The position numbers and the translations under genes were made by a program. A DNA stretch of 64,000 nt from Polytrichum commune (Eukaryota; Streptophyta; Polytrichopsida; Polytrichales; Polytrichaceae): positions 46,344,440 through 46,408,439 of the forward strand of contig OX485807.1 in the NCBI GenBank assembly GCA_950295325.1, written 5' to 3'. Positions 1 through 2,615 of this stretch are shown one piece after another (the first letter of the stretch is position 1; every line of letters starts with the position of its first letter). The notes below the pieces were generated by a model. The model was not told the DNA's origin. It saw nothing but the letters and a program-made list of their open reading frames with translations, and did not search any database.

Positions 1-2615
1 CTTGGTATGTAGAGGATGCTGTTAAAATATGAACCTCTGTACTGTTAGTACCGGTCTGGGATTTCTTGATCGCAAAGAGGTCTCTGTTGTGGGCCAAAGC
101 AAATTGAAAATTCTGGCCAGTCTCGTGAAGATTGATCCCTGATTGACACCGGAAGTGTTGGTAGTTGGCGTCGGCATTGAGGATGTGGATTTCCGTTGCG
201 CGGGACTCCGTGCCAAGCTTGTTGATGCAAAAGAGGTCATTGTTATCCGGTGCCACCAAAAAATCCCAGGTATGTTCGGTTTCGAAGTGCACATAGTTAT
301 TAAGGATGTGGTTGTCTGGTTCAAGGATGCCGGCCGTCGTCGGTTCCCAAACACCCGCAGAAGGTGGAATTAATAACAACGAATTCTTAAACAAGTCCAT
401 GACTTGGCTGGCAACTGTGATTCTGTCAATGACATGAAACCAACAAACAATCAATAAGGGTATCAACTAGACAATCAATTGGACAAACCTAATCACAATA
501 ATTACCATGAGCTTCCACACAGTAATATTCTGCCCAATTATGGATGAAGCGGCGGTCTGAAAATCAACGTTCACGGCTTGATAGCAAATTCGAAATTTCA
601 TAGCTCACCTGTACTCACTACGCATGGCAACCTCAGGATCCTCCTCCCTGTCCATGTCCTGAAAGTTGCAAATATTATCATCAATTAGATTCTGGTTGGT
701 CATCTATCTGTAGTTACAGATTGTTTTTGTAGGATGGCAGTTTAACAGTAGTTGGCGTGTCTGCGCGCCAACAATGTTTTTGTCATGACAACAGGACGAA
801 TGCACAGAGCTCGCAAATACTCCAAATATAAGCAGTTCAAAATTTTCTAAGTTAGTCAATTACCTCAACATGAGTTCGTCGAGTCTCTGAACAGTACTTA
901 ACCATCATCTTGATGTAGTTGTTGCTCGTGCTAGGGTGAATTCTGAATCGTGGCAAAGTTCCTTGGTCGGTTGTAGATGGTATTCCAATCAAAAGATCGT
1001 ATCTGACCTCTTCAAGCCTGTTGCAAATCTGTAAAAAGCTAGGCCTTGAATGAGGACGTCCATCCCAACAGTCTTTCACAAGTGCAACCAGCTTCTCAGG
1101 ATAAGCTCCTGGAGGGAGCGGTGGTCTCGTACCTGTCACTAATTTATTGTACAAACCAGTTTGGGGAATTCCATGAAACGCCTCTTTCAAAGAAAGAATC
1201 TCTGCGCATGTGATGCCAAAGCTATACACATCGGCTCTCATCCAAATGACCCTTCCTCTATCTCCTTCTTGCTGTGCATTTCTAAATACCTCTGGAGCTC
1301 TGTATCTTGTGGTGCCAGTATTTGGTACCGATATTGTACTTGACTTGGAAACTTCCACTTTGGTCCTTGACATACCGAAATCGATCAACTTCACACAGTA
1401 GGTGTCGACAAGATGTGGAATATTACTGACCTTGTTGATGACCACGTTTGCTGGTTTAAGGTCTCGATGTGCAATCCCAAGGTCATGCAGATAACACATC
1501 CCCCGTGCTATTTGCACAATGATATCAAGTGCCACAATCGGTGAAAACAGCGGTTCTCTGTTATCTGTTCGCGATTCAATAATATCAGAGAGGCTCGTGT
1601 CCATGATCTCCATAACTATGAAATAGTGCCCCTTCCGTGGGTCGTTTCCACAGCAAAAGAATTTTACAATATTAGGGTGATTGAGGCGAACCAGGATTCT
1701 GGTTTCGTTTACGAATGTAGTCTCATCCACTCCAGCAGTAAAAACCTTCATTGCACAAGGGATGCCAAGCCATGTAGATTTACCAACACAAGTGGCACCA
1801 GATCCACTTCCAATAATTTCCAAGTTCCCCCAAGTCCCTGGAGGTTCCACGTCAGTCACCCACAATATTTCACCGGACATGTCCAAGTCCTCCATTAATT
1901 GACCTTGTTGACGTAGGCTTTTCAGTTTCCCGAGCAAGTATCTTGCAAGGTGTTGCTTTCGAGGGTTAATTGAGGACGAAACACGTTTATCGCCAACTTG
2001 GTTCTCAAGTGCTTGCTGGAGCATTTGTTGATCTTTGCAAACCTCCTCCATGTCCACAAGTGAAATGGCATCTGGGTGTGGGCAAAGATTTTCTGGTAGT
2101 GTACAAAAGTTCCTTTCTTCAATCATGCAGTTTGCTTGGTCATAAATGACATTGTAACCTAACCCTACATCCAGCAAAATATCCTTAAATGCCTCTTCAT
2201 TTTGGACCTGAAACACTGATGCTTCACACCAATTTTCTTCGCTGCAGCAGTTATTAACAAGCGACTTCGCCTTCTCCAAAATCCTGCACAAGTTCTCCAA
2301 GGCTGGCTTGAAGGCAGTGGATAGGCTTGCTCCAGATTGTGGCGAGCTCACAAAGTTCATTAGTTCTTGGATATTGTGAACTGTGGTCATAAGCTTTGAT
2401 GACAAATTCTCACATTGCATCTTATTCAGCAGCAGCGTTTTAGACTTGAAAACGAGGTCATGAATCTCTTTCACACTCCGTATCAAAACATTTAAGCAAT
2501 CGACGGCATCAGAATTACAACCAGGCACTATGGGGATCAGCTGAGTTCTGGATGATGTGGATGGAGCCCAGAAACGCCGTAAGCTATCAACAACCTGCTT
2601 CAGCTTCCCCATCAT
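1..2615 (-). CDS. MLKL-like N-terminal region + protein kinase + C-terminal TEVHIL-type repeats, 3' partial
   Basis: Probable signalling kinase, running off the left edge. Exons read on the minus strand: 2615-864, 658-619, 556-506, 414 to beyond 1; all junctions are GT-AG and stay in frame, 752 codons visible. The start is the first ATG of an ATG-ATG pair at 2615. Residues 1-165 are helical and resemble the N-terminal bundle of plant MLKL-type proteins. The kinase domain is about 263-540: glycine loop GSGSGATCV (269-277), Lys290 in CAMKVF, Glu304, HRDLKPAN with Asp385, DFG 412-414, APE 440-442. All catalytic residues are present, so it should be active. After a linker (RRFIHNWAEYYCVEAHG) come two repeats about 52 residues apart, DLFCINK...TEIHIL (674) and DLFAIKK...TEVHIL (726), suggesting a beta-propeller or lectin-like tail. 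Reading through intron 1 gives a 587-residue kinase ending VID. The N-terminal family and repeat function are inferred; the kinase call is firm. Confidence 0.88.

Follow-up and report, generated by a model that had tools for sequence, protein, structure and literature searches.

A predicted fusion of an MLKL-like kinase with FG-GAP-like repeats in the moss Polytrichum commune

Plant MLKLs have been described as a seed-plant family (PMC9950082). They contain a helical bundle, a brace and a kinase in this order, and no propeller is carried by those of Arabidopsis or by wheat Pm13 (PMC10951266). The Arabidopsis and animal MLKLs are pseudokinases; the catalytic residues of Pm13 are intact. In mosses, a class of genes combining a kinase with NB-ARC (PNL class, PK-NBS-LRR; Xue 2012, PMC3352924; also termed Pkn-NLRs, PMC11218826) was reported to be moss-specific and to have a conserved phase-0 intron that separates the kinase from the NBS (PMC3352924). 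A Physcomitrium kinase N-terminal domain caused a modest and variable response in Nicotiana (PMC11218826). In the accessible literature the kinase fronting moss NLRs is treated as a plain kinase, and an open literature search, in which absence proves little, found no published report of a moss NLR kinase as MLKL-type. In wheat kinase fusion proteins, e.g., Lr9/WTK6-vWA and Sr43 (PMC10260399, PMC10260397), a kinase is joined to an extra domain proposed to serve as bait or sensor.

Here we describe a locus, gene A, at the left edge of a window of 64,000 bases (C5:46344440-46408439 of the 408-Mb genome); the contig to the left of the window was also examined. The minus strand carries a kinase ORF (852-2615), and directly behind it on the same strand comes a series of propeller-like repeats. 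Both elements are real, and their domains are sound. With a probability of roughly 55%, the product of gene A is a kinase fusion protein with a length of about 1,158 residues. It would begin with an MLKL-like bundle of four helices and a brace, continue with an active Ser/Thr-type kinase belonging to the family of the moss kinase-NLRs, and end in an FG-GAP-like propeller at the place where its relatives have NB-ARC-LRR. The features are as follows.

864-2615, minus strand: exon 1, 584 codons, with a predicted phase-0 donor GAG/GTAATT; the unspliced ORF ends with VID and a stop at 852
2160-2507, minus strand: HeLo/MLKL-like four-helix N-terminal domain, about residues 37-152, suggested by Pfam, profile comparison with the PDB and AlphaFold2 helices
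1836-2159, minus strand: brace-like segment linking the bundle to the kinase, about residues 153-260, placed by collinearity with 6lba
1011-1823, minus strand: protein kinase domain, residues 265-535, from Pfam, the family alignment and the 6lba alignment
659-863, minus strand: predicted intron 1, 205 bases
609-658, minus strand: predicted exon 2, 50 bases, of which 44 are identical in the decayed copy D, where its splice sites also persist
423-608, minus strand: predicted intron 2, 186 bases, with an acceptor that is the weakest of the four splice sites
1-422, minus strand: portion of the tail exon inside the window; another 1,253 bases of the exon lie further left, up to a stop at C5:46343187
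128-286, minus strand: repeat unit 1 (FETEHTWDF...INL), full unit
1-127, minus strand: repeat unit 2 (HETGQNFQF...), cut by the window edge, with most of the unit inside

A sequence-only reading of this stretch had taken exon 1 for a complete, active kinase of 587 residues with an MLKL-like N-terminus. In agreement with this, the region 852-2615 forms one minus-strand ORF of 587 residues with a helical N-terminus and a kinase domain that Pfam assigns to Pkinase with an E value of 8e-39 (residues 265-535). The catalytic residues K290, E304, H383-R384-D385, N390 and D412-F413-G414 are all present and are invariant in an alignment of 16 family members, which predicts an active enzyme. The two PDB entries closest in sequence to the gene A kinase are 6lba and 6ka4, whose files carry the names "protein kinase family protein" and "F22L4.1 protein" and which we take to be structures of Arabidopsis MLKLs. 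When a profile of nine family members was compared with the PDB, 6lba was aligned over profile positions 39-514 of 560 with an E value of 5e-63 and 6ka4 came second at 1e-49. The third match, an entry named EGFR (1e-43), had no stretch passing on its own, and ordinary kinases followed from about 1e-36. The 6lba alignment shows bundle, brace and kinase to be collinear in a single polypeptide, the order also found in Pm13, and this collinear match over nearly the full length favors the fusion reading. The gene A kinase is thus related to MLKL, but because the K, E, HRD, N and DFG residues are all intact, as in Pm13, and canonical MLKL is a pseudokinase, we do not file it as a canonical MLKL.

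For the N-terminus alone, Pfam gave only sub-threshold matches (MLKL_N, E 0.004; RPW8, E 0.026), and MLKL_N was matched below threshold in 5 of the 16 family members. A profile limited to the N-terminus (122 positions, compared with all PDB sequences) yielded 14 entries up to an E value of 10, with 6lba at the top (0.007), ADR1 second (0.029), followed by a designed protein and by several animal MLKLs near 0.2. Although each of these matches is weak, MLKL and ADR1 families fill the top of the list, and we therefore read the N-terminus, with moderate confidence, as a HeLo/four-helix bundle of the plant MLKL type. AlphaFold without relatives predicted helices at residues 37-57, 65-89, 96-123 and 140-152 with low to moderate confidence (block-mean pLDDT 54-80 across residues 41-130). 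The structures listed as matching this low-confidence model were generic helical bundles, MLKL not being among them, a result that excludes nothing.

A search of the moss's own genome revealed 67 loci of this kinase family, with tandem parts merged. At least 26 of them are followed on the same strand by NB-ARC at a distance of 284-872 bp, the same scale as the approximately 450 bp between kinase and tail in gene A, which argues for the fusion. As most of the loci preceding NB-ARC start to match gene A at residues 35-63, the bundle belongs to the kinase-NLR module, too. The exon family that provides the gene A kinase also serves as N-terminal module of the moss kinase-NLRs. Many of the kinase loci upstream of NB-ARC are clustered (C6:24.2-24.4, 34.1-34.3 and 36.3-36.9 Mb; others on C3, C5 and C2), and these clusters are arrays of kinase-NLR (PNL) genes whose kinase part includes the MLKL-like bundle. 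Gene A differs from them in its C-terminal part: downstream of the kinase lies a repeat exon instead of NB-ARC or LRR, and among the matches listed no NB-ARC was found near gene A or its nearest paralogues. The family also occurs as tandem bundle-kinase-bundle-kinase ORFs of up to 1,231 amino acids (C2:412000-738000; L050 616-3822; L042 1432-4563), and the existence of such fusions likewise favors a joined gene A. At another locus, adjoining C1:994664-996160, a family kinase is followed on the same strand, after about 460 bases, by a second, MAPKKK-like kinase domain with HGN replacing HRD (L047 3-866, minus strand).

The repeats had been described as units of the form DLF.I.K....TE.HIL.A...YQ, spaced by about 52 residues, running past the window edge and forming a propeller-like domain. 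The first part is confirmed: the window holds one full unit and most of a second, and the tail exon, up to its stop, comprises about 10 units, mostly 51-54 residues long and all within one exon, the sixth being irregular and the last short. Nothing credible was found for the tail in Pfam, NCBIfam, the PDB, phages or viral contigs. A Deinococcus gobiensis plasmid protein, WP_169331077.1, matches it with an E value of 2e-15 in a region that Pfam calls FG-GAP_3. A profile built from the moss units only recovered this protein at 5e-24 (scaled to 100,000 sequences); of 200 shuffled versions searched alongside, not one was reported. At the level of sequence, the moss unit is thus homologous to FG-GAP-type repeats, and it shares with the FG-GAP/VCBS proteins (PF13517) a unit of about 50-60 residues. 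The bacterial units, however, carry a DxDxDG-type calcium loop that is absent from the moss units, which are 4 or 5 residues shorter at this place. Homology to FG-GAP-type units combined with the missing loop makes a propeller without that calcium site the likely fold. This part of the earlier description is backed by the bacterial homology and gained nothing from structure modeling, as AlphaFold2 without relatives returned mostly strands with a pLDDT of 37 for a 133-residue window piece of the tail, a model that is unusable. A match to Acholeplasmatales (L066) was rejected as a chance match of a short peptide. A protein of D. gobiensis plasmid P6 (L067 2340-6812) has FG-GAP-like units followed by RHS repeats, and its gene adjoins one annotated as polymorphic toxin-type HINT protein.

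An in-frame exon chain linking kinase and repeats, as had been proposed, exists, but the best-scoring one contains one short exon and a long tail exon rather than three short exons. This chain runs from 2615 to 864, from 658 to 609, and from 422 onward, and keeps the frame open over 1,158 residues. Its sites scored 5.7, 4.8, 4.6 and 1.9 bits with approximate plant splice matrices, so that these figures and the spacer frequencies below are rough. Both donors and the first acceptor score well, in favor of the fusion; the last acceptor is low and speaks against it. When the spacer was swapped for random window segments, 29% gave some chain, 11% equaled the weakest site and 7% equaled the mean score. 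Since random spacers match the chain in 7-11% of the trials, the splicing of the kinase to the repeats is a plausible inference. A short middle exon at about 557-506 was rejected as poorly supported: it would require either weak sites or an intron of 51 bases, and with the strongest sites it runs into a stop.

A splice chain not beyond chance also suits two neighbor genes in tandem. In this reading, the first gene would encode an MLKL-like kinase of 587 residues that is complete at 852, and the second a propeller protein of its own, begun at the ATG at 400 or at another start close by. This alternative is a serious one, although it falls short of even odds. The kinase ORF is complete when unspliced, and in the nearest paralogues (L037-L041) it ends in a stop codon at about the same place. 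A second tail, copy B (C5:46329044-46330747), stands alone as an intact repeat ORF of 567 residues with its own ATG and without a kinase, and decayed tail copies elsewhere also lack kinases, from which it follows that the tail can be a gene of its own. On the other hand, the parts of gene A lie on the same strand only about 450 bases apart, leaving little room for a terminator and a promoter, and the first 53 residues of B are unrelated to the start of the gene A tail. Moreover, the best donor of gene A is predicted in phase 0 at the very place where kinase-NLRs have their phase-0 intron (PMC3352924). We consider the join of kinase and repeats somewhat favored, mainly because family membership marks the kinase exon as a first exon with onward splicing in phase 0. 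In L037-L041 and L045 a consensus splice donor (GTAAGT or GTAAGC) shares bases with the TAA stop of the kinase ORF, and these kinases may also continue into further exons. No convincing counterpart of exons 2-3 of gene A was found within 1.5 kb in the paralogues.

By analogy with MLKL, Pm13 and the wheat kinase fusion proteins, the fusion protein might act as a sensor or cell-death kinase, as had been suggested; this suggestion holds up in kind, as the family provides the N-terminal module of the moss kinase-NLRs (PMC3352924). The wheat proteins belong to another kinase subfamily and carry other extra domains, and function is proven only in wheat. The propeller would bind a microbial or modified host ligand or serve as bait. 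Ligand binding would free or cluster the kinase, which would phosphorylate itself or a partner, and the helical bundle would then be released to drive membrane-linked cell death or immune signaling. As a tentative generalization, which may well prove wrong, the MLKL-type bundle and active kinase could constitute in mosses a swappable executioner module that is spliced at phase 0 to varying sensors on its C-terminal side, namely NB-ARC-LRR, another copy of the module, or, in gene A, a bacterial-type propeller without the calcium loop. If a whole MLKL module fronts moss NLRs and can also join a propeller, NLR, MLKL and kinase-fusion immunity would be linked in one lineage, and a cell-death role of moss kinase-NLRs would become directly testable.

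Further copies bear on whether gene A is intact. Copy D (C5:46240900-46254420) keeps the order of kinase, middle with exon 2, and tail, but is a pseudogene with insertions, stops and frameshifts. Its order and the presence of all four predicted splice sites of gene A favor the fusion; as D is decayed and the aligned middle is 77% identical, however, the kept sites lend weak support and are no sign of selection. A decayed kinase copy at C3:57567599 starts to match at the same point as D (window 1785). Further tail copies on C1, C2, C3 and C7 (L025, L030, L031, L033, L034, L035) are disrupted by frameshifts and stops, and within 1.5 kb of them nothing matches the kinase convincingly. With so many decayed copies, gene A might itself be a decaying or unexpressed remnant in which the joined reading is incidental. 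We regard this as very improbable, as both ORFs of gene A are open over their full length and most differences between the tails of A and B are silent. Over 508 codons, dN between the two tails was 0.186 and dS 0.699; the resulting dN/dS of 0.27 shows purifying selection on both and adds to the case for the fusion gene. The stretch between tail A and tail B contains a Ty3/Gypsy-type retroelement whose gag-pol ORFs are broken and include an apparent chromodomain (L009 2170-6767, minus strand).
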